The position numbers and the translations under genes were made by a program. Shown here piece after piece: positions 9,141-29,011 of a stretch of DNA of 64,000 bases. The notes beneath the pieces were generated by a model. That model did not search any database, was not told where the DNA came from, and saw only the letters and a list, made by a program, of their open reading frames with translations. Positions within the stretch are counted from its first letter, which is position 1. Each line of letters begins with the position of its first letter. Origin of the DNA: Hymenobacter sp. BRD128 (GTDB lineage: Bacteria > Bacteroidota > Bacteroidia > Cytophagales > Hymenobacteraceae); contig NZ_CP053908.1 in the NCBI RefSeq assembly GCF_013256625.1, forward strand, positions 3,534,001 to 3,598,000, written 5' to 3'.

Positions 9141-9386
9141 AAAATTTAATTCTACCAGGAGCAGGAGCCGTAGCCCTTAAAAACTACTGCAAACTACCAA
9201 ACAAGCGGCATTCCGCCCGCAATACAGGCTCATTCGCTAGCATTGCTTCAGGAGTAATTGTACAATCCTTTTCCTGGCATCATCCCTAGCCAGGAGCCAG
9301 GTTTTTACCAGCCAGCAGGCGGGTTGCCGCCACCCACCGGGCCCGGTTTTACGTAAGCTTTTTCACTCATTCCAGCCTTTTCCACT

Positions 9387-10288
9387 ATGCCAACTCGCAA
9401 AGCTGCCACGCCGGCCCCACCCAAGCGCCCTACCGCCAAGGATATGAAGGAGCACGCCCAGAAGCTTCCCTACCCCGCCAAACAGGCCGACATGACATTT
9501 CAGCCCCAGAGCAGCCTGGCCGCTTACCGCGCCGCCGGCAAGCTCGAAGGCAAGGTGGCCCTCATCACGGGGGCCGACTCGGGTATTGGCCGCGCCGTGG
9601 CCATCGCCTTTGCCAAGGAAGGGGCCGATGTGGCCATTCTTTTTAATGAAAACCAGGAAGATGCGCAGGAAACCAAGCGCTTGGTCGAACAGGAAAACCG
9701 CAGGTGCCAGGTGTTGCAGCTCGATGTGCGCGACCGCGAGCAGGCGTTTCAGGCCGTGCGCCTGGTGCGCCAGGAACTGGGGGGCTGAATATTCTGGTCA
9801 ACAATGCCGCCTTTCAGATGGCGCAGGAGAAATTTGAGGATATTCCGGAAGCCCAGATTCGGCGCACGTTCGACACGAATATTCTGGGCTACATGTGGAT
9901 GGCGCAGGCCGTTATTCCGCACCTGCAAAGCGGCGACTGCATCATCAACACGGGCAGCGTAGTGGGCCTGGTGGGCATTCCGCTGCTCGTGGACTACGCC
10001 TGCACCAAGGCCGGTATTCACGCCCTTACCAAATCGCTGGCCCTGTACCTGGGCGAGCGCAATATCCGGGTGAACTGCGTGGTGCCCGGCCCGGTCTGGA
10101 CGCCCAACATTCCCGGCACCATGCCGCGCTCGGAAATCGAGAAATTCGGCCACGAAGTAGCCCTCAAGCGCCCCGGCCAGCCCGAGGAGCTGGCGCCGGC
10201 CTACGTGCTGCTGGCCTCGCAGGATGGCTCGTTTATGACCGGCGCGCTGGTGCACGTCACGGGTGGTAAACTCAGCAGCGACGAGTAA
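9387..10288 (+). CDS. SDR family oxidoreductase, YghA/GSP39-like (apparent frameshift)
   Basis: A short-chain dehydrogenase with a long N-terminal extension (about 45 residues, Lys/Pro-rich, then TFQPQSSLAAYRAAGKLEGK) typical of the YghA / general-stress-protein-39 type. The cofactor site is TGADSGIG, with NILVNNAA, the Ser in INTGSVVG and YACTK as the catalytic YxxxK. It ends VHVTGGKLSSDE. The frame breaks in the G run 9779-9784. One added G gives a continuous 300-residue protein with QELGGLNILVNN, exactly as in relatives. Members reduce aldehydes or ketones and are often stress-induced. A hairpin terminator follows. Confidence 0.88.
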
Positions 10289-10315
10289 ACTTCTGGGCCG
10301 TTTCCCCGTTCAGAA

Positions 10316-10369
10316 GGAAGGAAATCCGTAGCGCCTGATGCTGACGAATTTCCTTCCACCCGTTTTTTT
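10316..10369 (+). terminator. Hairpin terminator after SDR gene
   Basis: Fourteen-base arms (10316-10329 and 10344-10357) with one mismatch, followed by a run of seven T. It separates the SDR gene from the gluconate-dehydrogenase subunit 3 gene. Confidence 0.75.
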
Positions 10370-10372
10370 GGT

Positions 10373-10942
10373 ATGACTTCGCAGGATTTGCTTTCCTCGG
10401 CGCACGTATCGGCGGCCACCCGCGCCGCCCTTACCCAACGCCTGGCCGACACTGGGGCGGCCTATACGCCGCAGTTTTTGGCCCCCGAAACCTACCGGCT
10501 GCTCGAAGCCGTGGCCGCGCGGTTGTTTCCGCAGCCCGAGCGGCCGGTGCCCATTCCGCTAGCCCCGGCCGTTGACCAGCGCCTGGCCGCAGGCCGCGCC
10601 GATGGCTGGCGCTACGATGCCCTGCCGCCCGACCGCGAGGCCTATCGCCTGGGCCTGGGTGGCGTGCAGGAAATCGCGCAGTCGCTTTTTAAAACTGATT
10701 TTGAGCAGCTCAACCCTAGTCAGCAGGATGCGGCAATCCAGGCGCTGGCCAGCGGCAACCCGCCCGGCGCGATTTGGCAAACGCTGCCGGCCGGCCGCTT
10801 TTTTGAAGAACTACTGGCCGAGCTTACCGAAACCTATTATGCCCACCCCTGGGCGCAAGATGAAATCGGCTATGTAGGCTATGCCGACCTGCCCGCCTGG
10901 GCCAAAATCGGTCTCAACGAAAAAGACGACCGCGAAGCATAG
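10373..10942 (+). CDS. Gluconate 2-dehydrogenase subunit 3 family protein
   Basis: A 189-residue protein of the gluconate 2-dehydrogenase subunit 3 family: FLAPETYRLLEAVAARLFPQ near residue 35, DQRLAAGRADGWRYD, and a helical C-terminal half with FFEELLAELTETYYAHP and IGYVGYADLPAW. In the known complexes this small subunit pairs with a GMC-type FAD subunit, and such a gene starts 51 bases downstream. Unlike many homologues it has no Tat or Sec signal, so the pair here probably works in the cytoplasm or is exported otherwise. No cytochrome c subunit is adjacent. Confidence 0.9.
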   Translation: MTSQDLLSSAHVSAATRAALTQRLADTGAAYTPQFLAPETYRLLEAVAARLFPQPERPVPIPLAPAVDQRLAAGRADGWRYDALPPDREAYRLGLGGVQEIAQSLFKTDFEQLNPSQQDAAIQALASGNPPGAIWQTLPAGRFFEELLAELTETYYAHPWAQDEIGYVGYADLPAWAKIGLNEKDDREA

Positions 10943-10993
10943 CCAAATAACTAGCTACATAACAGCTCTTTATCTATTTATCATATCCGTTAT

Positions 10994-12685
10994 ATGCCCG
11001 ACGAAGAAATCGCCGAGGAAGGTATCCTTAGCCCTACCGCGCCCGCCATTCAGGACCCCCTGCTGCGCGAGCTGCTGGCCGAAAATGCGCCGCTAGCCGC
11101 TCCCATCGACACGCCGCTTGAGCAGCCGCAACCCCTGCCCGCCCCTACCGAAACCGTCGATTGCATCGTGATTGGGCTGGGCGCGGGTGGCGCGCCGCTG
11201 CTGGCCCGGCTAGCCCAGGCCGGCCTGAAGGTGGTAGCCCTGGAAGCCGGCCCCTGGCATAATCCCGAAAAAGACTTTGCCACCGACGAAAAAGCGCAGG
11301 ACTTCCTGTTTTGGAACGACGAGCGGCTGGCGGCCGGTGGCGACCCGCTGGCGATGGGCAAAAACAACTCGGGTACCGGCGTGGGCGGCTCCACACTGCA
11401 CTACACTGCCTATACGCCCCGCCCCCTGCCCGACGACCTGCACCTGAAGCGCGACTTCGGCCAGGGCGAAGACTGGCCGCTGACCTACGACGAGCTGGCG
11501 CCTTATTTTGAAGAAGTTGAGCAGTTTCTGGGCGTTTCGGGGCCTACCCCCTACCCCTGGGGTCCTGGCCGGCCCAAGGGCTACGCGCTAGCCCCGCTGC
11601 CGCTCAATAGCGCCGCCCAACTCATGGTGCGCGGGGCCGAGAAGCTCGGTATCAAAACCGCGCCAGCGGCCAACGCCGCCCTCTCGGCCCGCTACTACCA
11701 GGAGGGCGTGGGCTGGCGCGAGGCCTGCACCAACCGGGGCTTTTGCCAGGCCGGCTGCTCGAACGGTGCCAAATCCAGCATGGATGTGACGTACATTCCG
11801 CTGGCAGTGAAGCACGGGGCTGATATTCGCCCCAATAGCTTCGTGACGGAGATTGAGCGCGATGCGCGCGGCCACGTGGCGGCAGTGGTGTACACGCAAA
11901 ATGGCCAAAACCACCGGCTAGCCTGCAAGAATCTGTTTCTCTGCGGCGGCTCGGTCGAAACCCCACGCCTGCTGCTGCTCAATGAGTTGGCCCTTACCAG
12001 CGGCCAGGTGGGCCGCAACCTGATGGCTCACCCCGGCCTGCAGGTGTGGGGCACTTTCCCCGACGAGGTGCGCCCGAATAAAGGCATTCCCGGCGGCCTT
12101 ATCTCGCAGGATACGCACCGGCCTAAAGACGCCGATTTTGCGGGCGGCTACCTGCTGCAAAGCATTGGGGTAATGCCGGTTACGTTTGCGGGCCAGGTGG
12201 CGCGCGGGCGTAAGCTCTGGGGCCAGCCACTGCGCGACTATATGCGGCAGTTCAACCACATCGCGGGCATCAACATCCTGGGCGACTGCCTGCCCCACGC
12301 CGACAATTACCTGGAATTAAGCGACGAAAAAGATGCCCGCCAGCTGCCTAAGCCACGCCTGCACTTCACGGCCCAGGAAAACGAGCTGCGCATGAATGCC
12401 CACGCCGCGCGCACCATGCGCGGCATCTGGGAGGCCGCCGGGGCTAGCGACATCTGGGATTTTCAGCGCTATGCGCACGTTATCGGCACGGCCCGCATGG
12501 GCCTGAACGGCGACGATGCGGTGGTGAACCGCGACGGCCGGGCCTTCGACGTGCCTAACCTGTACATCTGCGACAACTCGGTGTTTCCCAGCGCGCTCAG
12601 CGTCAATCCGGCGCTCACCATTATGGCGCTCAGCCTGCGAACTGCCGATAAGTTTCTGGAAAAAGAAAGACGGCGGGACGAGTAA
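10994..12685 (+). CDS. GMC family FAD-dependent oxidoreductase
   Basis: A 563-residue GMC oxidoreductase, the catalytic partner of the gluconate-dehydrogenase-type complex. The FAD site is VIGLGAGGAPLLARLAQAG (about 56-74) with Glu of LEAGPW binding ribose. Other marks are GVGGSTLHYTAYTPRP, a four-cysteine segment CTNRGFCQAGCSNGAK, GGSVETPRLLLL, and the C-terminal HVIGTARMG and VFPSALSVNPALTIMAL, which hold the catalytic His/Asn pair. It likely oxidises a sugar or polyol, substrate unknown. It follows the subunit 3 gene closely and precedes a family 1 glycosidase, suggesting a carbohydrate role. Confidence 0.93.
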   Translation: MPDEEIAEEGILSPTAPAIQDPLLRELLAENAPLAAPIDTPLEQPQPLPAPTETVDCIVIGLGAGGAPLLARLAQAGLKVVALEAGPWHNPEKDFATDEKAQDFLFWNDERLAAGGDPLAMGKNNSGTGVGGSTLHYTAYTPRPLPDDLHLKRDFGQGEDWPLTYDELAPYFEEVEQFLGVSGPTPYPWGPGRPKGYALAPLPLNSAAQLMVRGAEKLGIKTAPAANAALSARYYQEGVGWREACTNRGFCQAGCSNGAKSSMDVTYIPLAVKHGADIRPNSFVTEIERDARGHVAAVVYTQNGQNHRLACKNLFLCGGSVETPRLLLLNELALTSGQVGRNLMAHPGLQVWGTFPDEVRPNKGIPGGLISQDTHRPKDADFAGGYLLQSIGVMPVTFAGQVARGRKLWGQPLRDYMRQFNHIAGINILGDCLPHADNYLELSDEKDARQLPKPRLHFTAQENELRMNAHAARTMRGIWEAAGASDIWDFQRYAHVIGTARMGLNGDDAVVNRDGRAFDVPNLYICDNSVFPSALSVNPALTIMALSLRTADKFLEKERRRDE

Positions 12686-12775
12686 GGTGCAGGGCTTGTT
12701 CCCGCCCATGCAGTCGAGCTACAACTACTAGTCGTTTAATGACGGGCGGGGGCAAGCCCCGCACCTTACTTTTTT
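12683..12775 (+). terminator. Large imperfect hairpin with T run before GH1 start
   Basis: The stop region of the GMC gene (TAAGGTGCAGGGCTTG...CCCGCC) is repeated in inverted form at about 12744-12768 (GGCGGG...CAAGCCCCGCACCTTA), followed by six T that directly abut the ATG at 12776. It looks like a terminator for the GMC gene placed with no gap before the next start codon. Confidence 0.6.
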
Positions 12776-18744: not shown

Positions 18745-20073
18745 CTACATCTTATACGCGAGCACGATGCCAAACGAGAGCGCCGTGAGGATAAGACCCA
18801 CCATGAAAATGGAGTAGCTCACGCGCAGCAGCTTGTATTTGCGGTCGAGCACTTCGCCGAGGTAATACACGTCGGTTACCATGTTGGTATAGAGCGTGTC
18901 TTTCTGGCGCATCAGGTCGCGCATGCCCTCCTGAAAGTGCTGGAGACTAAGCTTGGTGAACTGCCCGAAAAACAAGAGGTTGACGCGCCGGTTGGTGGCA
19001 ATTTCGGGGTTGCGCTTCAGCCACTTAAAGCTCGTGACGTCGGGCTGGGCCGAGAGGATGGCCGACGTGACGGACCCTAGCGCCGTAATGAGCAGCACGC
19101 CCATCGGCACCGCCAAGATAGGGTTGCGGGTAAAATTGGTATCGCCAGTAACCAGGTGCGACGACTTAGCCCCCAGGTAAGTAATTATTACCGAGAGAAT
19201 TACCGCATTGAGCTGAATCATCATGCTGGCCTTTTTATCGGCCATATCCGAGAGCTTCATGTGATTAGAATACATGGTGCGAAACATCGTTTCGATGCCC
19301 CGCTTGGGCTCGGCGAAGGTGTCGGTAGCTTCCTTTGCTTTCTTCTTGGCTTTTTTGGCGGCTTTTTTCAGCTGGTCGCGCTGCTCTTCAATATTGGCTT
19401 TGAGGCACTTTTTGTAGCGCGCCTTGCCTACTTCCGACCGGTACTTGTGGGCCAGCATGAAGTTGAGCTGCAGCTCGGCCCAGTCGGGGGTGGTGTACGA
19501 CTTGTCGAGGGCCAGCTCCCACTCGTTGCGGATAAGCTCGGCGCGGGCCCGGAAATCATCGGCCGCGAGGTTGCTCATGTCGGCATCGACGAGCATCTTT
19601 TCAAGCTCGGTCCGGGCCTCTTCGTTGCGGTGCGTGGCCCGGATGAGATTCTTAATGACCTCGATACGAGCCGGGTCGTAGCCTTTTTCCTTGAGCCAGG
19701 CTTCGGCGCGGACCATGCTTTTGTACTCGTGGCCGTCGTAAGTATCGAGGTAGCCCGAATCGTGAAACCAGGCGGCCAGCAGTAGCTCCTCGGTTTGCTC
19801 GGGGCTGAGGTGGGCATCGTCGGCCAGGTTGCGCGCCTGCTTCACCACGTAGGCCGTGTGGGCCAGCGTGTGGTAGGTGAGACGCGGGTCAAGCTCTTTT
19901 TCGAGTATCGGCTCAAGATAAGCCTGCGCCTGCTGCACCAGCGCCGACGGCTCGGGCTTGGGCGGCTTGGGGGCCTTGGCCGACGCGGCCCCTTGGTTGG
20001 CGGGTGCCGCTTCGGGGGTGTCGGCAGGGGTAGCCGGGGCGTCGGCGGCGGCGGGGAGGGTAGTAGTAGCCAT
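18745..20073 (-). CDS. HD domain protein with C-terminal Pycsar-effector (PycTM/DUF5706-like) membrane domain
   Basis: A 442-residue protein in three parts. Residues 1-45 are Ala/Pro-rich and disordered. Residues about 60-215 form an HD phosphohydrolase domain with complete metal ligands in pattern: YHTLAHTAYVV, FHDSGY (His104-Asp105) and VDADMSN. A Lys-rich helix (235-250) links to a membrane domain (about 258-442) with three predicted segments (near 287-301, 318-341 and 419-440) and flanking ADKKASMMIQLNAV, the pattern of the PycTM effectors of Pycsar antiphage systems. HD domains often cleave nucleotides. No nucleotide cyclase gene is adjacent, unlike classical Pycsar. It may sense or degrade a cyclic or stringent nucleotide, or control membrane integrity. 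Function is inferred. Confidence 0.82.
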   Translation of the reverse strand: MATTTLPAAADAPATPADTPEAAPANQGAASAKAPKPPKPEPSALVQQAQAYLEPILEKELDPRLTYHTLAHTAYVVKQARNLADDAHLSPEQTEELLLAAWFHDSGYLDTYDGHEYKSMVRAEAWLKEKGYDPARIEVIKNLIRATHRNEEARTELEKMLVDADMSNLAADDFRARAELIRNEWELALDKSYTTPDWAELQLNFMLAHKYRSEVGKARYKKCLKANIEEQRDQLKKAAKKAKKKAKEATDTFAEPKRGIETMFRTMYSNHMKLSDMADKKASMMIQLNAVILSVIITYLGAKSSHLVTGDTNFTRNPILAVPMGVLLITALGSVTSAILSAQPDVTSFKWLKRNPEIATNRRVNLLFFGQFTKLSLQHFQEGMRDLMRQKDTLYTNMVTDVYYLGEVLDRKYKLLRVSYSIFMVGLILTALSFGIVLAYKM

Positions 20074-20221: not shown

Positions 20222-20360
20222 ATTCATTTTAGCTTCACCAGTGGGCCGCACAGGAAGCCAGGCCACTGGCTGGCGGTATGGAGCGGCCTGCTGCCAGCAG
20301 AAAGCCTTGAGTTTTTGCACTTTCCTTATGACCCCGCCGGTGGGTCGTAATTTTGTTTCT

Positions 20361-23300
20361 ATGACGCTCTTTTTCCGCCTTTTATTCTGCTTAAGTCTGC
20401 TCGCCGCCCTGCCCCGCACGGCCGCCGCGCAGCTTGAGGAGCTGGGCGAAGCCGGTGAGTCCGACTTCAACCCCGTCAATCCCAAGCCCAACTACCGGGG
20501 CAAGGCCCTGGGCTGGGAAAAAAACCTGCCGCCCGATTCTAGCCGCCTGCGCTACTCGGTGTTTCTGATTGGCGACGTGGGCAATCCCATCCCGGCCGAC
20601 AAGGGCGGCGAGCCCTCGCTCAACTTCATGCGCCAGCAGATGCTGCAGGCCGGCAGCAAGAGCGCGGTGGTATTTCTAGGCGATAATATCTACAACCAGG
20701 GTATGCCGCCCGAAGGCGCCTACGACCGCAAGATTGCCGAGGGCCGCCTCAATACCCAGCTCAATATTCTGAAGGGCTACCAGGGTGAGAAATACATGGT
20801 GCCCGGCAACCACGACTGGATTCAGGGCTACAAGGGCGGGCTAGCCCAGGTAAACCGCGAGCAGGCCTACGCCGAGCACTACCTGGCCCAGGACTCGACC
20901 GAGTTCTCGTATACCGGCGACTTTCTGGTACCGCGCGATGGCTGCCCGGGGCCCTACGAAATCCGGCTGCGCGACGACCTGGTGATGATTGCCATCAACT
21001 CGCAGTGGTTTATTACCGACCAGGCCAACCGGCCCTTTGGCGAGGCCTGCGGCGCCGATACCGAGGAGGAAGTTTATGCTCAATTAGAAGAGGTTATCAA
21101 GCGCAACCAAAGCAAGCACATTCTGATTGTGACGCACCACCCGCTGTTTTCGGATGGTATTCACGGCGGCTACTTCACGTTTGCCGACCACGTATTTCCG
21201 CTCAGCATTGTGCAGAAATACGCCTTTTTGCCGCTGCCCGTCATTGGCTCGGTGTATCCGCTAGCCCGCAAGTACGGCGGCATTGCCCAGGATTTGGCCT
21301 ACCCGGCCTACCAGGATTATAAGAAGAACCTGCGCGAGCTGTTTGCCAAGTACCCGAACGTGATTTACGCCAACGGGCACGAGCACAACCTCCAATACTA
21401 CGACGACCCCGGCAGCAAGGCGCACTTCATCACGAGCGGCTCGGGCTGCAAAACCCAGCACGTGAAGCCCGGCAACGGCGGCGACGCGCTGTTTTCGGAC
21501 AAGGAAAAGGGCTTCGCCCGGCTCAATTATTACGACGACGGCCAGGTGTGGGTCGAGTACCTCATTCCGAGCGATGCCGACAAGGGCCAGACCGCCCGGC
21601 GCGTGTATCGCCAGCAGGTGTATGCCGAGCTGGGCCGGGGCACCCTGGCCAGCGCCAAAAAAGGCCCCGGCAGCGCCGTAAACACCACCAAGCCCGACGC
21701 CGGCCCGGCGCAGGGCACCCGCGCCCCCGCCGGCACCGCCCAAACCGTGAAGGGCAACCAGAGCCGCGACGACCTCGACAATGCCGCCTCGACCGGTACG
21801 CCCAACAAGCCCACCGGGGCGCCAGTGGTGACCTCGGCCGCCCCGCGCCCTGATTATAAAGACAGCACCGTGACGGTGGCCGTGAACCCGGCCTACAACC
21901 AGCACGGCAGGTTTCACAACTGGCTGCTCGGCGAGCACTACCGCCGCGAGTGGGCCACGCCGGTGAAGTTCCCGGTACTCGATATTAAAACGGCCGAGGG
22001 CGGGCTGATACCTTATAAAACGGGCGGCGGCAAGCAAACGGCCTCGCTGAAAGTGCGCAACGAAGACGGCTATTATTTCAAGGTGCGCGGCATCGATAAA
22101 GACCCCGCCGCCGTGCTGCCCGAGAATTTTCGGACCGGGCTAGCCAAGGCCGTGCTCCAGGACCAGATTTCGGCTCAGCACCCGTATGCGGCCTTTGTGC
22201 TGCCGCCGCTGGCCACGGCGGCCGGCATCCTGCACACCAACCCGCGCTATGTCTACATCCCCAACGACCCGGCGCTGGGGCAGTACCAGCAGAAATTTGC
22301 CAATACGCCCGCCTCGCTCGAAGAAGACGCCAAGGGCAGCCAGGATACCGACGCCTCGCTCGGCTACGCCAAGAAGCTCGTGAGCACCGACAAGATGCTT
22401 GAAAACCTGCTGGAAGACAACGACAACCAGGTGGACGAGCCGGCCTTTGCCCGCTCGCGCCTGTTCGATATGTGGATTGGCGACTGGGACCGCCACGAGG
22501 ACCAGTGGCGCTGGGCGCAGCGCAAAACCAAGGACGGCGACAAGATTTACACCGCCGTGCCCGAAGACCGCGACATTGCCTTTTTTAAGGGCGATGGCGT
22601 GCTGCCCACGCTCATTTCCAAGAAGTTTGCGGTGCGCAACTTCCAGAATTTCGGCTATGACTACGGCGACTACAAGGGCCTCAACCAGACCGGCCTGAGC
22701 AACGACCGCCTGTACCTGAGCGGGGTGAGCCGTGAGGAATGGGTGAAACAGGCCGAGATTATGAAGGCCCAGCTAACCGATGAGGTGATTGAAAAAGCTT
22801 TCCGCGATAAGTGGCCTAGCCAGATTTATGCCGAGCACGGCGCCGAGATTGTGGCCAAGCTCAAGAGCCGCCGCGACCTGCTGCCCGACGTGGCCCGCAA
22901 GTACTCCGACCTGATGAGCGACATCGTGGAAGTGCGCGGCTCGCAGAAGCGCGAGAAATTTACGGTGACGCGCCTGCCCGACCACAAAACACGGGTGGTG
23001 ATGCAGAAAATCAGCAAAAAAGGCCAGCTCACCAAGGTGCTTTACGACCGCACCTTCGACCGCGTAACCGATGAGATTCGCCTCTACGGCATCAGTGGGC
23101 GCGATATTTATGACCTGAGCGGCGACGAGCGCCAGGGCCACAAAATCCGCATCATTGCCGGCACCGGGCGCGATTCTATCGTGGACGACTCGCGCGTGGC
23201 GGGTATGCGCCACCGCACCCAGATTTACGACGCCGACACCGGCAACGTCATCATCAACAAGCTCGGCGAGGCCCGCCTGCGCCTGGAGCCGGGCGTGGAC

Positions 23301-24458
23301 GTGAGCCGCTACGACCACCCGCACCGCTTCGACCTCAAGGACTACCGCCTCAACTACACCGGCCCGGCGCTGTTTTTTGGCTATAATATCGACGATGGCT
23401 TTCTGCTGGGCGGCGGCGTTACGCACCGGCGCTACGCCTTCCGGCGCGAGCCCTACGGCTCGGAGCAGAGCCTGACGGCCAACGTGGCGCCGGCCCGCAG
23501 CGGCGCGTTTAACCTACGCTATATCGGGCAGTTTACGAGCGTATTCGGGGGCAAAACCGACCTGCACGTGGCGGCGCAGTACTACGGCCCGCAGCTACTC
23601 TACAACTTCTTCGGCATCGGCAACAACACCCAGAACTACGCCAAAGAGCACGAAGGCAACCCCACCAACCGCTCGGTCAACAGTGCCTACCGCATCCGCT
23701 TCGACCGCTTGTATATAGCGCCCACTTTCGAGCGCAAGCTCTTCACCTTCGGCACCTGGGGCATCGGGCCGCAGTTTGAGCGCTTCCGGGTGATGGACGA
23801 CCAGATTGGCACCGTTATCAGGGACAGTATCGGCGCTGATTTGGAGAACCGCCATTTCGGCATTCGCAACTCCGACTTTCAAGCCAACACCTACCTCGGC
23901 GGGCTGGTCTACCTCAATCTCGGCGCGCAGTCGTCGCCCAAAGACCCACGCATTGGCATTCAGTGGCACAACGAGGCGCAGTATAACTTCCAGCTCAACG
24001 GCGAGCAGCTTACCTACGGCCGCATCGCCTCCGAGCTGAAGGCCTACCTCACGCCCAATTTCCCGTTCCGCATCACCTACGCCGGGCGCGTGGGCTGGCA
24101 GCACAACATCGGCGACTACCGCTTTTACCAGGCCAACACGCTGGGCGGCACCACCAACCTGCGCGGCTACCGCCGCACCCGCTTCGCGGGCCGCGACGCG
24201 CTCTACGGCAACTTTGAGGCGCGCCTGCACCTGTTTAAGTTCAACGCCTACCTGTTCCCCGGCACGTTCGGCATCATGGGGCTAGCCGACGCCGGCCGCG
24301 TATACTCGGCGCAGGATACGCGCAGCGGCCTGCAGGCCTTCCACACCGGCTTCGGCGGCGGCGCCTTCGTCAATATCCTCGACACCACGGTTATCAACGT
24401 CACCTATTCGGTAGGCGAGGAAAAGCTGGTGTATGTGGGGTTTGACTTTTTGTTTTAA
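20361..24458 (+). CDS. Metallophosphoesterase fused to Omp85-type outer-membrane barrel
   Basis: A 1365-residue exported protein (signal peptide about 1-23, ending AAAQ). Residues about 65-400 are a calcineurin-like phosphoesterase with FLIGDVGN (71-75), FLGDN (107-109), GNHDW (149-153), VTHHP and NGHEHN. The middle part holds a segment around residues 700-740 (bases about 22465-22600), IGDWDRHEDQWRW followed by PEDRDIAFF, which resembles the catalytic loop and metal motif of CotH/HipA/FAM20-like kinases. The last 300 or so residues look like an Omp85 surface-antigen barrel, with GGTTNLRGYRRTRFAGRDA and a terminal VGFDFLF. I chose the ATG at 20361 for its signal peptide. The catalytic region may face the periplasm or the cell surface. 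Substrate unknown. Confidence 0.85.
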   Translation: MTLFFRLLFCLSLLAALPRTAAAQLEELGEAGESDFNPVNPKPNYRGKALGWEKNLPPDSSRLRYSVFLIGDVGNPIPADKGGEPSLNFMRQQMLQAGSKSAVVFLGDNIYNQGMPPEGAYDRKIAEGRLNTQLNILKGYQGEKYMVPGNHDWIQGYKGGLAQVNREQAYAEHYLAQDSTEFSYTGDFLVPRDGCPGPYEIRLRDDLVMIAINSQWFITDQANRPFGEACGADTEEEVYAQLEEVIKRNQSKHILIVTHHPLFSDGIHGGYFTFADHVFPLSIVQKYAFLPLPVIGSVYPLARKYGGIAQDLAYPAYQDYKKNLRELFAKYPNVIYANGHEHNLQYYDDPGSKAHFITSGSGCKTQHVKPGNGGDALFSDKEKGFARLNYYDDGQVWVEYLIPSDADKGQTARRVYRQQVYAELGRGTLASAKKGPGSAVNTTKPDAGPAQGTRAPAGTAQTVKGNQSRDDLDNAASTGTPNKPTGAPVVTSAAPRPDYKDSTVTVAVNPAYNQHGRFHNWLLGEHYRREWATPVKFPVLDIKTAEGGLIPYKTGGGKQTASLKVRNEDGYYFKVRGIDKDPAAVLPENFRTGLAKAVLQDQISAQHPYAAFVLPPLATAAGILHTNPRYVYIPNDPALGQYQQKFANTPASLEEDAKGSQDTDASLGYAKKLVSTDKMLENLLEDNDNQVDEPAFARSRLFDMWIGDWDRHEDQWRWAQRKTKDGDKIYTAVPEDRDIAFFKGDGVLPTLISKKFAVRNFQNFGYDYGDYKGLNQTGLSNDRLYLSGVSREEWVKQAEIMKAQLTDEVIEKAFRDKWPSQIYAEHGAEIVAKLKSRRDLLPDVARKYSDLMSDIVEVRGSQKREKFTVTRLPDHKTRVVMQKISKKGQLTKVLYDRTFDRVTDEIRLYGISGRDIYDLSGDERQGHKIRIIAGTGRDSIVDDSRVAGMRHRTQIYDADTGNVIINKLGEARLRLEPGVDVSRYDHPHRFDLKDYRLNYTGPALFFGYNIDDGFLLGGGVTHRRYAFRREPYGSEQSLTANVAPARSGAFNLRYIGQFTSVFGGKTDLHVAAQYYGPQLLYNFFGIGNNTQNYAKEHEGNPTNRSVNSAYRIRFDRLYIAPTFERKLFTFGTWGIGPQFERFRVMDDQIGTVIRDSIGADLENRHFGIRNSDFQANTYLGGLVYLNLGAQSSPKDPRIGIQWHNEAQYNFQLNGEQLTYGRIASELKAYLTPNFPFRITYAGRVGWQHNIGDYRFYQANTLGGTTNLRGYRRTRFAGRDALYGNFEARLHLFKFNAYLFPGTFGIMGLADAGRVYSAQDTRSGLQAFHTGFGGGAFVNILDTTVINVTYSVGEEKLVYVGFDFLF

Positions 24459-24582: not shown

Positions 24583-26697
24583 CTATCCCTCCACCCACAC
24601 CGGCTCGCCGCTGAGCGCGGCGTTGCCGGTGAGCGCATCGAGGCGCTGGTCGTCGGTGAGGTCGTTGAGGCTGGCGCCGGGGTGCTGGCTAGCCACGGCC
24701 AGGCGCAGGCCGGCGCGCTGGTGGCCGTAGCCATGGGGCAGGCTGACCACGCCGGGCATCACGGCCTCGGTCAGCTCAATGGGCACTTCGATGCTGCCCA
24801 CCCGCGAGCGCACCCGCACCAGTTGGCCGGCGGTGAGGTGGCGGGCGGCGGCATCGGTGGGGTGTAGGTGCAGGGTGCAGCGGTTGCGGCCCTTGATGAG
24901 GCGGGGCAGGTTGTGCATCCAGGAGTTGTTGCTGCGCAATTCGCGGCGACTAATTAGCAGCAGTTGCTCGGGTGCCAGGGCTAGCGGCGCGGCCAGGGCC
25001 TGCCGGGCGCGGGCCAGGTCGCCGAGCAGCAGCGGCGGGGCCAGGTTAATGCGCTGGCCGGCCGTGCGCAGCGTGTGCGGCAGGCGCGGCTGCAAGGGGC
25101 CGAGGTCTACGCCATGGGGCTGCGCGCGCAGGGCGGCCAGTGAGAGGCCGGCCGGGCCGTAGGCGCCGTAGCGCAATCCCAGGTCGATTTTAGCTTCGGG
25201 ATTTTCCGGGGGCGCGGCGGTGGCCGGGTCGTAGGCATCGCCGGTTTCGAGGCGCTGGCGCAGGCCTTCAAAAATCTCCCAGTCGTAGCGCTGCTCCGCC
25301 GTTTTCTCAACCAACGGCTCGGAGTAGCGCGCCGTGTTGCGAATGGCCAGGGCGTGAAACGACACGTCGTAGTGTGCCGTTTCGAGGCCCGTGGCGGGCG
25401 GCAGAATGTAGTGGGCGTGGCGCGTGGTTTCGTTGAGGTAGATGTCGATGCTCACCATAAAATCGAGGCTAGCCAGCGCCGTGTCGAGCTGGCCGCCGTT
25501 GGGCGTGCTCAGCACCGGGTTGCCGCAGCTCGTGACCAGCGCCCGCAACTGGCCGGGGCCGGGCGTGCGGATTTCCTCGGCCAGGCAGGCCACCGGCAGC
25601 TCGCCCATAAACTCGGGCACGCCGCGCACCCGGCTGCGGTAGCGGTCGTAGCGCTCATACGCCTGAGGCTTACCCAGCAGGTCGAGGGCGGGCGTGGCAA
25701 ACATGGCCCCGCCCGGCTCGTCGAGGTGCCCGGTGAGAGCGTTGAGCACGCTCACCAGCCACAAGCACAGCCCGCCAAACTCCTGCACCGATACGCCCAC
25801 CCGGCCGTAGCACACGCCGCGCCCGGCGGCGGCCAGCTCGCGCGCCAGCCGGCGCGTGGTGTCGGCCGCCATGCCGGTGCGGCTAGCCACCTGCTCGGGC
25901 GCAAAGTCGGCCACGGCGGCGGCGGCCAGCTCGGCCAGGCCATCGAGGCAGTCGGCCAGCCGGCCGGGCCGCACCAGGTTTTCGGCGAAGAGCGTGTGCA
26001 CCATCGCCAGCAGCAGAAACACGTCGGTGCCGGGCCGGATGAAGTGGTGCTCGTCGGCGCGGGCGGCGGTTTCGGTGCGGCACGGGTCGATGACAACCAC
26101 CCGGCCGCCGCGGGCCTGAATGGCGCGCAGGCGGCTAGCCACGTCGGGCGCCGTCATCAGGCTACCGTTGCTAACCAGGGGGTTAGCCCCCAAAATCAGC
26201 CAGTAGTCGGTGCGGTCGAGGTCGGGCACGGGCAGCAGCAGCGGATGCCCGAACAGCTGCCAGGCCGCGAAGTGGTGCGGCAATTGGTCCACGGACGAGG
26301 CCGAGAACAGGCTGCGCGAGCCGAGCGCCTTCAAAAAGCCCGGCATCGACAGCTGGGTGCCCGAGTTGTGCACCGTGGGGTTGCCGGCGTACCAGGCCGT
26401 GGCGTGCGGGCCGTGAGCGGCGCGCACCGCCCGCAGGCGGGTGGCCACCTCGTCGAGCGCCGTGTCCCAGCTCACTTCTTCCCAGCCGGTGGCGGTGCGG
26501 CGCAGCGGCCGGCGCAGGCGGTCGGGGTCTTCGTATATATCCTGCAAACCCAGGGCTTTGGGGCAGATGTGGCCCCGGCTGAGCGGGTCGGCCTTATCGC
26601 CCGCGATGCGCAAAATCCGGCCATCCTGGTGCGTGATTTCGAGGCCGCAGATTGCCTCGCAGAGGTTGCAGGCGCGGTAATGCGTTTCGGGCGTCAT
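24583..26697 (-). CDS. Molybdopterin-dependent oxidoreductase (bis-MGD family)
   Basis: A 704-residue enzyme of the DMSO-reductase/formate-dehydrogenase superfamily. The N-terminal 4Fe-4S ligands are Cys10, Cys13, Cys17 and Cys45. Then come NPTVHNSGTQLSMPGF, ILGANPLVSNGSLMTAPDV, VVIDPCRTETAARADEHHFIRPGTD and FGGLCLWLVSVLNALTGHLDEPGG. The C-terminal molybdopterin-dinucleotide-binding barrel includes RELRSNNSWMHNLPRL and VSLPHGYGHQRAG. There is no Tat signal, so it is likely cytoplasmic. I see no Cys or Sec at the usual formate-dehydrogenase position, so the substrate is open. No electron-transfer subunit or cofactor-synthesis gene is adjacent; the ppk gene is upstream on the same strand. Confidence 0.9.
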   Translation of the reverse strand: MTPETHYRACNLCEAICGLEITHQDGRILRIAGDKADPLSRGHICPKALGLQDIYEDPDRLRRPLRRTATGWEEVSWDTALDEVATRLRAVRAAHGPHATAWYAGNPTVHNSGTQLSMPGFLKALGSRSLFSASSVDQLPHHFAAWQLFGHPLLLPVPDLDRTDYWLILGANPLVSNGSLMTAPDVASRLRAIQARGGRVVVIDPCRTETAARADEHHFIRPGTDVFLLLAMVHTLFAENLVRPGRLADCLDGLAELAAAAVADFAPEQVASRTGMAADTTRRLARELAAAGRGVCYGRVGVSVQEFGGLCLWLVSVLNALTGHLDEPGGAMFATPALDLLGKPQAYERYDRYRSRVRGVPEFMGELPVACLAEEIRTPGPGQLRALVTSCGNPVLSTPNGGQLDTALASLDFMVSIDIYLNETTRHAHYILPPATGLETAHYDVSFHALAIRNTARYSEPLVEKTAEQRYDWEIFEGLRQRLETGDAYDPATAAPPENPEAKIDLGLRYGAYGPAGLSLAALRAQPHGVDLGPLQPRLPHTLRTAGQRINLAPPLLLGDLARARQALAAPLALAPEQLLLISRRELRSNNSWMHNLPRLIKGRNRCTLHLHPTDAAARHLTAGQLVRVRSRVGSIEVPIELTEAVMPGVVSLPHGYGHQRAGLRLAVASQHPGASLNDLTDDQRLDALTGNAALSGEPVWVEG

Positions 26698-26772: not shown

Positions 26773-28908
<2,136 letters not shown>

Positions 28909-28917
28909 ACGGAAGAA

Positions 28918-29011
28918 CGTCATGCTGAGCTTGCCGAAGCATCTCTATCACGCCGCTAGGGTCACTAACCCCAGGAAGTGGCAGAGATGATTCGGCAAGC
29001 TCAGCATGACG
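28918..29011. repeat. REP-like palindromic intergenic element
   Basis: Two 29-base arms (28918-28946 and 28983-29011) starting CGTCATGCTGAGCTTGCCGA, inverted with one mismatch around a 36-base loop. It lies between ppk1 and the SixA-type gene. The arm sequence has the look of a mobile repetitive palindrome rather than a terminator (no T run). I saw no second copy in this window. Confidence 0.7.

Follow-up and report, generated by a model that had tools for sequence, protein, structure and literature searches.

The window analysed here is a stretch of 64,000 nucleotides from the genome of Hymenobacter sp. BRD128 (4.88 Mb). The open frame under study lies on the plus strand at positions 20241-24458 and encodes 1405 amino acids when it is read from its first GTG. 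As judged by eye from the sequence, Met41 (position 20361) is the likelier start, and it opens a signal peptide that ends near Ala63. The divergent upstream neighbour (18745-20073, minus strand) encodes a membrane protein with an HD domain and a PycTM domain (PF01966, E = 1.6e-5; PF18967, E = 8.7e-29); PycTM is known as a Pycsar effector domain. Downstream, the polyphosphate kinase 1 gene (ppk1) is found on the minus strand at 26773-28923 (TIGR03705, 697 bits against a cut-off of 466), and a molybdopterin oxidoreductase gene (24583-26697, minus strand) lies between it and the gene under study.

Judging from its sequence, the N-terminal domain is a calcineurin-like phosphoesterase of the purple acid phosphatase type. 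Residues 85-480 (20493-21680, plus strand), as searched, matched PF00149 in Pfam (E = 4.6e-7, 30.9 bits, cut-off 21.5) and the purple acid phosphatase 1qfc in the PDB (E = 1.5e-6). All five metal-ligand motifs of this metallophosphatase domain are present (GDxG at residue 111, GDNxY at 147, GNHD at 189, HHP at 299 and GHEH at 379). When strict expressions were applied to 106 phosphatase-form proteins, all five motifs were found in 78, and the three core motifs were all absent from 12. At least one of the three core motifs is missing in 27 rows, which include L056, L058, L066, L067, L073, L082, L105 and L108. The phosphatase domain is followed by a linker rich in Ala, Thr, Gly and Pro (residues 481-548; 21681-21884, plus strand), recognised in the sequence.

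The C-terminal part was modelled together with the middle of the protein (residues 549-1405; pLDDT 90.1, pTM 0.85). By this model the protein ends in a barrel of the Omp85 superfamily, BamA/TamA type (residues 1039-1401; 23355-24443, plus strand), which was delimited by DSSP and structure matches and has 16 strands in a hand count of the DSSP list. The best match was BamA 9ccg (Z = 25.6, 308 residues aligned, 3.7 Å), and TamA 8us1 was close to it (Z = 24.4, 294 aligned, 3.5 Å). The NCBIfam Omp85 model NF047779 gave E = 3.8e-23, yet its 82.6 bits are below the curated cut-off of 200. Residues 895-1016 (22923-23288, plus strand), ahead of the barrel, form an all-beta domain without helix according to DSSP of the same model (model residues 347-468). 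The original prediction had described a fusion of a phosphoesterase and an Omp85 barrel, and both parts were borne out by the PF00149 match, by 1qfc and by the BamA/TamA-like model.

Between the linker and the all-beta domain lies a domain of 346 residues (549-894; 21885-22922, plus strand), delimited from an AlphaFold model, from Foldseek and VIA matches and from hhalign scores against decoys. No model of Pfam or NCBIfam passed its cut-off in this domain. The original prediction had noticed here IGDWDRHEDQWRW and, about 20 residues later, PEDRDIAFF, and it had likened the two to the catalytic and metal-binding motifs of kinases. Both are in place, with DWDRH starting at residue 748 (position 22482) and EDRDIAFF at residue 775 (position 22563). 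The spacing was fairly described; 15 residues separate the end of the first motif from the second, and Asp750 and Asp776 are 26 residues apart. The putative catalytic loop DWDRHEDQW comprises residues 748-756 (22482-22508, plus strand), with Asp750 as the candidate catalytic Asp, and the candidate metal-binding motif PEDRDIAFF comprises residues 774-782 (22560-22586, plus strand), with Asp776 and Asp778. GGGKQT (residues 595-600; 22023-22040, plus strand), which sits between the first two N-lobe strands of the model, may be the Gly-rich nucleotide-binding loop. Arg616, which closes the third strand, and Lys620 (22086-22100, plus strand) are candidates for the usual strand-3 lysine, whose position is apparently taken by Arg.

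The conservation of these residues was counted in 97 rows taken without regard to the motif, from loci L004-L034 and L115-L174; the domain matches listed numbered about 138. The rows include the domain of the window itself and its two paralogs, divergent rows were deliberately kept, and gaps were counted as not conserved. In the putative catalytic loop, Asp748 was kept in 94 of the 97 rows, Asp750 in 86, Arg751 in 93, His752 in 81, Gln755 in 88 and Trp756 in 93; Asp776 and Asp778 were kept in 88 and 86. The N-terminal residues were similarly conserved (Gly595 87/97, Gly596 88/97, Gln599 83/97, Arg616 86/97, Lys620 91/97), and Asp641, a candidate for the helix-C acid that pairs with the strand-3 lysine in kinases, was kept in 88. 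Thus the Asp, the His and the second Asp, on whose conservation the original prediction had staked its reading, are kept in relatives that were not selected by the motif. A regular expression of the type read in that prediction occurred in 237 of 20,000 shuffles of the protein and in one of 510 neighbouring non-family open reading frames. The motif pattern by itself is only weakly surprising; it rises above chance because it is conserved across relatives and lies in the predicted fold.

The fold of residues 549-903 was predicted by AlphaFold from an alignment of 75 sequences (A2), with pLDDT 90.0 and pTM 0.90. Its elements follow one another as in a kinase. The N-lobe strands come first, then helices of the C and E types; after the DWDRH loop there are two strands, and these lead to DRD. 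In domain numbering, the N-terminal part has strands at 42-47, 54-58 and 64-69, a helix at 86-95, a strand at 141-147 and a helix at 185-198, and the active-site part has the DWDRH loop at 200-204, strands at 208-214 and 220-226, and DRD at 228-230. A Foldseek search against the PDB gave six matches at E ≤ 0.001, and all of them were CtkA, PI4K-II or HipA/HipT chains. CtkA (E = 1.4e-5) and PI4K-II-alpha (2.0e-4) were at the top; the remaining ones were HipA 4pu4, 3dnu (titled 'MDT protein', which we take to be HipA), HipT 7ab5 and pHipA 3tpd. The TM-scores by query length were low (0.42 for CtkA, 0.38 for PI4K-II and 0.35 for HipA), with rmsd of 8-12 Å.

CotH was absent from the best 50 Foldseek matches and surfaced when the Foldseek match list was re-aligned with VIA-align. 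PI4K-II-beta 9hhm was then first (Z = 15.1, 250 aligned, 4.3 Å), tied with CotH 5jda (Z = 14.9, 256 aligned, 4.2 Å). CtkA 3akk followed (Z = 13.6, 240 aligned, 4.8 Å), and after it came actin-fragmin kinase 1cja (Z = 11.6, 225 aligned, 4.0 Å) and PI3K-type kinases, HipA 4pu5 (Z = 11.2, 222 aligned, 4.2 Å) and the Golgi casein kinase 4kqb (Z = 10.8, 241 aligned, 5.1 Å), presumably FAM20. The original prediction had made its case depend on a fold related to protein kinases, and the model, Foldseek and VIA all point to such a fold, which the middle domain almost certainly has. On the evidence of the model, the domain would represent a new family within the protein kinase-like fold, closest to the PI4K-II/CotH branch, and its active site would be intact. 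A POTRA variant had been considered for this domain and was set aside, its model being kinase-like.

A PDB sequence search with a 19-row profile of the domain found no kinase (best E = 0.12), so the resemblance to kinases shows up only in fold comparison and in profile-profile comparison. With hhalign, the family profile scored 33.3 against CotH of the phylum, while no column-shuffled decoy exceeded 20.7 (59 of 60 gave a score) and the reversed profile reached 18.1. Against HipA it scored 28.6; there the shuffled decoys stayed at or below 18.2 (57 of 60 gave a score), and the reversed profile reached 12.7. The absolute probabilities were low, namely 12.3% for CotH and 4.9% for HipA, and 9.8% and 0.8%, respectively, with the A2 alignment. 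The alignment pairs GDWD with GNWD of CotH and PEDRDIAF with PYDYDNTL of CotH. A phmmer search with a CotH protein from Bacteroidota failed to recover 5jda, and therefore the CotH residues were mapped through the hhalign comparison with CotH sequences from the phylum and not on the solved chain. From this mapping we infer that the aligned Asp is the catalytic Asp of CotH, the counterpart of Asp750, and that it would be D228. The available text of PMC7821199 describes the D228Q mutant of CotH as catalytically inactive. Judging from the conservation of its motifs, the middle domain is probably, if not securely, a catalytically active phosphotransferase.

We then considered how widely the domain occurs. 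Of 296 genomes sampled from the phylum, all at least 90% complete, 111 have it (60 of 139 genera), as do all 101 genomes searched of the genus of the window. Among the matches listed, the nearest named relative in the domain was from an uncultured Hymenobacter MAG (94% identity). A motif-pattern scan of the genome contigs gave at least 595 stretches, at least 587 of which encode relatives. From these relatives 80 named loci were kept; they were selected through the pattern WDRHx[DG]QW and are thus uninformative on the conservation of that motif.

Three architectures were seen in the 97 rows: 50 phosphatase-kinase-barrel, 33 kinase-barrel and 14 stand-alone proteins. The window genome has two stand-alone paralogs, which form a divergent pair. 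In rows not picked by motif, all three kinase Asp were kept in 48 of 49 phosphatase-kinase-barrel proteins, and at least one was missing in 12 of 33 kinase-barrel proteins. The divergent kinase-barrel proteins of L115-L122 and L124-L126 have degenerate catalytic motifs and may be a pseudokinase-barrel branch. The 12 phosphatase-form proteins without core phosphatase motifs, together with the kinase-barrel proteins without a kinase Asp, indicate that the pairing of the two activities is not strict. A crude expression for an N-terminal lipobox fitted 21 of the 33 stand-alone proteins, 7 of the 40 with the kinase-barrel form and 55 of the 106 with the phosphatase form.

When 33 stand-alone rows were examined, 22 kept all three Asp, and in 11 Asp750 was replaced by Ser, giving DWSRR or DWSRH. 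All 11 Ser-variants share a locus with an intact-motif copy, and they form one clade with a support of 0.82 in a FastTree tree of 184 rows (L001-L003, which are duplicates, and L005, the window's own locus, were dropped from the input; 187 rows were left, and 184 are in the tree). Eight of the 11 pairs come from the pattern-selected set, and three (L004, L127 and L136) do not. One example is the pair in L004, at 9331-11067 on the minus strand and 11116-12750 on the plus strand; the others are in L080, L089, L091, L094, L096, L107, L110, L112, L127 and L136. By their sequences, these recurrent neighbours may be kinase/pseudokinase-like pairs.

Neighbouring genes were counted as rows within the available flanks, with kinship ignored. 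An HD-PycTM-like gene was found near 47 of the 59 named rows with the phosphatase form. Its orientation varies; it is adjacent and divergent in 26 of the 59, and in 7 of 24 rows not picked by motif. Among kinase-barrel rows it was seen near none of the 10 named ones and near 3 of the 28 others, and it was not seen near any stand-alone row (19 named, 11 other). PPK1 was in the flanks of 19 of the 59 named phosphatase-form rows; among kinase-barrel rows it flanked 1 of the 10 named ones and 5 of the 28 others. For the same 59 rows, a SixA-type histidine phosphatase was found in 14, a class III cyclase in 15 and a DUF2652 protein in 12. An SdiA-regulated-type protein (PF06977) occurred in 19 of them, L077 included, in most cases immediately upstream and in the same orientation; since the stop-to-stop frames touch or overlap, an operon is possible. 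In 14 named rows (L040-L055), from Hymenobacter and Pontibacter relatives, the next gene downstream has the same orientation and encodes a DUF6268 protein. An anti-phage role was set aside, as the window protein and both paralogs matched none of the PADLOC families at E ≤ 0.01. The neighbouring HD-PycTM protein, by contrast, has matches to PycTM models.

The side of the membrane on which the enzyme domains act can be considered by analogy. PlpD is a patatin-Omp85 fusion whose enzyme domain is N-terminal and, in the available text of PMC11116518, kept in the periplasm. The periplasm is therefore the default expectation for the window protein, and a periplasmic position of its enzyme domains seems quite likely. 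Surface display, as in the original prediction, was set aside; the PlpD precedent in the available text points inward.

The presence of a phosphatase and a kinase-like domain in one chain suggests opposed activities, so that phosphate may be attached and taken off again by a single envelope protein. The explanation that we favour, and hold to be somewhat likely, is that an active periplasmic kinase-like domain is opposed by a phosphatase on an Omp85 barrel. The chain would be exported via its signal peptide and seated by its barrel in the outer membrane, with the two enzyme domains in the periplasm beside the inner leaflet. The kinase-like domain would phosphorylate a protein, sugar or lipid of the envelope, with Asp750 acting as the base and with Asp776, Asp778 and Gln755 holding the metal-nucleotide; the phosphatase domain would take phosphate off the same or a related substrate. 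That both enzymes act on one substrate is rather doubtful. The lipoprotein copies that stand alone would have a comparable task but no barrel, and the Ser-variant of each pair would be a pseudokinase partner. ATP is scarce in the periplasm, which counts against an active kinase.

The same fold might instead carry another chemistry, such as nucleotide transfer, or the work of a lipid kinase (PI4K-II) or a sugar kinase, directed at outer-membrane lipids or glycans and not at proteins. Such chemistries occur in kinase folds, as SelO performs nucleotide transfer and FAM20B is a sugar kinase, and PI4K-II, whose loops are similar, ties with CotH as the best VIA match. The precedent of PlpD, an enzyme-Omp85 fusion that affects membrane lipids in the available text of PMC11116518, leans the same way. 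However, neither fold nor motif tells the acceptor, and no lipid enzyme was among the recurrent neighbour families identified (7 of 16 listed families). We give this reading a minor though real chance. Alternatively, the domain could be a pseudoenzyme whose kinase fold serves as a scaffold, either for ligand binding or for holding the phosphatase to the barrel. It may be argued that the fold persists without a kinase Asp in the 12 kinase-barrel rows and in the lipoprotein clade of 11 rows with Ser750, and that Arg apparently replaces the strand-3 lysine. On the other hand, a role in structure alone gives no reason for keeping all three Asp, as the phosphatase-form rows not picked by motif do (48 of 49), and we consider this reading unlikely.

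A link with polyphosphate or phosphate metabolism, in which the phosphatase would cut polyphosphate or phosphoesters and the kinase-like domain would use or sense polyphosphate, is about as improbable. The PPK1 and SixA-type neighbours of phosphatase-form rows, in several orientations, and the PPK1 genes near kinase-barrel rows are consistent with it; but PPK1 is absent from the flanks of 40 of the 59 named phosphatase-form rows and of all 30 stand-alone rows, and many of the named matches come from one lineage (Hymenobacter and Pontibacter) in counts that ignore kinship. PPK1 also acts in the cytoplasm, which counts against a polyphosphate role. As to a chance or degenerate likeness to kinase motifs, which the shuffles might favour, the fold prediction, the profile alignment and the conservation in the 97 rows agree and largely contradict it, and it is exceedingly improbable.

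If the favoured explanation, a kinase-like domain opposed by a phosphatase, is true, reversible phosphorylation in the bacterial envelope becomes directly testable, and the 'Metallo' branch of Omp85 proteins gains a function. A conserved kinase-like family, without a label in the family libraries, would then sit on outer-membrane barrels across Bacteroidota. It would be a bold and quite unlikely extension to suppose an envelope phosphorylation system of the whole phylum, with a kinase-phosphatase-Omp85 hub and lipoprotein kinase/pseudokinase pairs tied to ppk1, SixA and HD-PycTM, and with polyphosphate or an exported nucleotide perhaps as donor. That such a system lies outside the family libraries searched is an equally speculative thought.

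To our knowledge, few kinases act outside the cytoplasm (FAM20-type, CotH). CotH (PF08757; PDB 5jda and 5jd9) resembles the middle domain in its fold and in the order of loop Asp, two strands and PxDxD. In contrast, GGGxQT and DWDRHxDQW are the middle domain's own, and the fusion with a phosphatase and a barrel is also unlike CotH. PF08757 did not match the window protein, one of 19 family members reached E = 0.19, which is not over the cut-off, and CotH had no match in the window genome at E ≤ 0.001. Type II PI4K (PDB 9hhm, 4wtv, 4pla and 4hnd) is alike in its fold, in the DRxxD[N/Q]W loop and in the DxxxAF segment. Its loop VLDYIIRNTDRGNDNW..AAIDNGLAF (PDB 4hnd) resembles LFDMWIGDWDRHEDQW..AVPEDRDIAF of the middle domain, and the PI4K2A loop NTDRGNDNW, checked against 4hnd, is similar to DWDRHEDQW. 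PF00454 had no match at E ≤ 1 to the window protein or the 19 members, and none of 61 phylum genomes matched it.

HipA and HipT, which are cytoplasmic toxins of toxin-antitoxin pairs, share the fold, and the HipA loop n-x-D-x-H-x-k-N aligns with D-W-D-R-H-x-D-Q of the middle domain; PF07804 had no match at E ≤ 1 to the window protein or the 19 members. FAM20 kinases, which are animal Golgi enzymes, are alike in fold (4kqb) and have a DRH loop, and the partner logic of kinase and pseudokinase in FAM20C/FAM20A may be shared by the middle-domain family. The FAM20 family had no match at E ≤ 1 to the window protein or the 19 members in the Pfam-A scans. The original prediction had likened the domain to CotH, HipA and FAM20-type kinases. 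The resemblance in fold and motif holds, membership of any of these families by Pfam does not, and PI4K-II is as close as CotH.

As for the fusion itself, Heinz and Lithgow (2014, PMC4104836) have described, in the available text, a 'Metallo' subfamily among the Omp85 proteins of non-POTRA architecture, in which PF00149, called a metalloprotease there, is N-terminal to the barrel. In the same text they offered only suggestions for its function, and said that the 'noNterm' barrels resemble the 'Metallo' barrels; the word 'kinase' does not occur in the main text available. The kinase-barrel proteins described above might conceivably be among those 'noNterm' barrels. We found no published record of the kinase-like domain, most subscription papers lying outside the search. 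PlpD, as described in the text available, differs in that it carries a patatin domain and POTRA, whereas the window protein carries the phosphatase, kinase-like and all-beta domains. Thus, with reference to the available text of PMC4104836, the metallophosphatase-Omp85 fusion is already known, and the putative kinase-like domain within it appears to be the new part.
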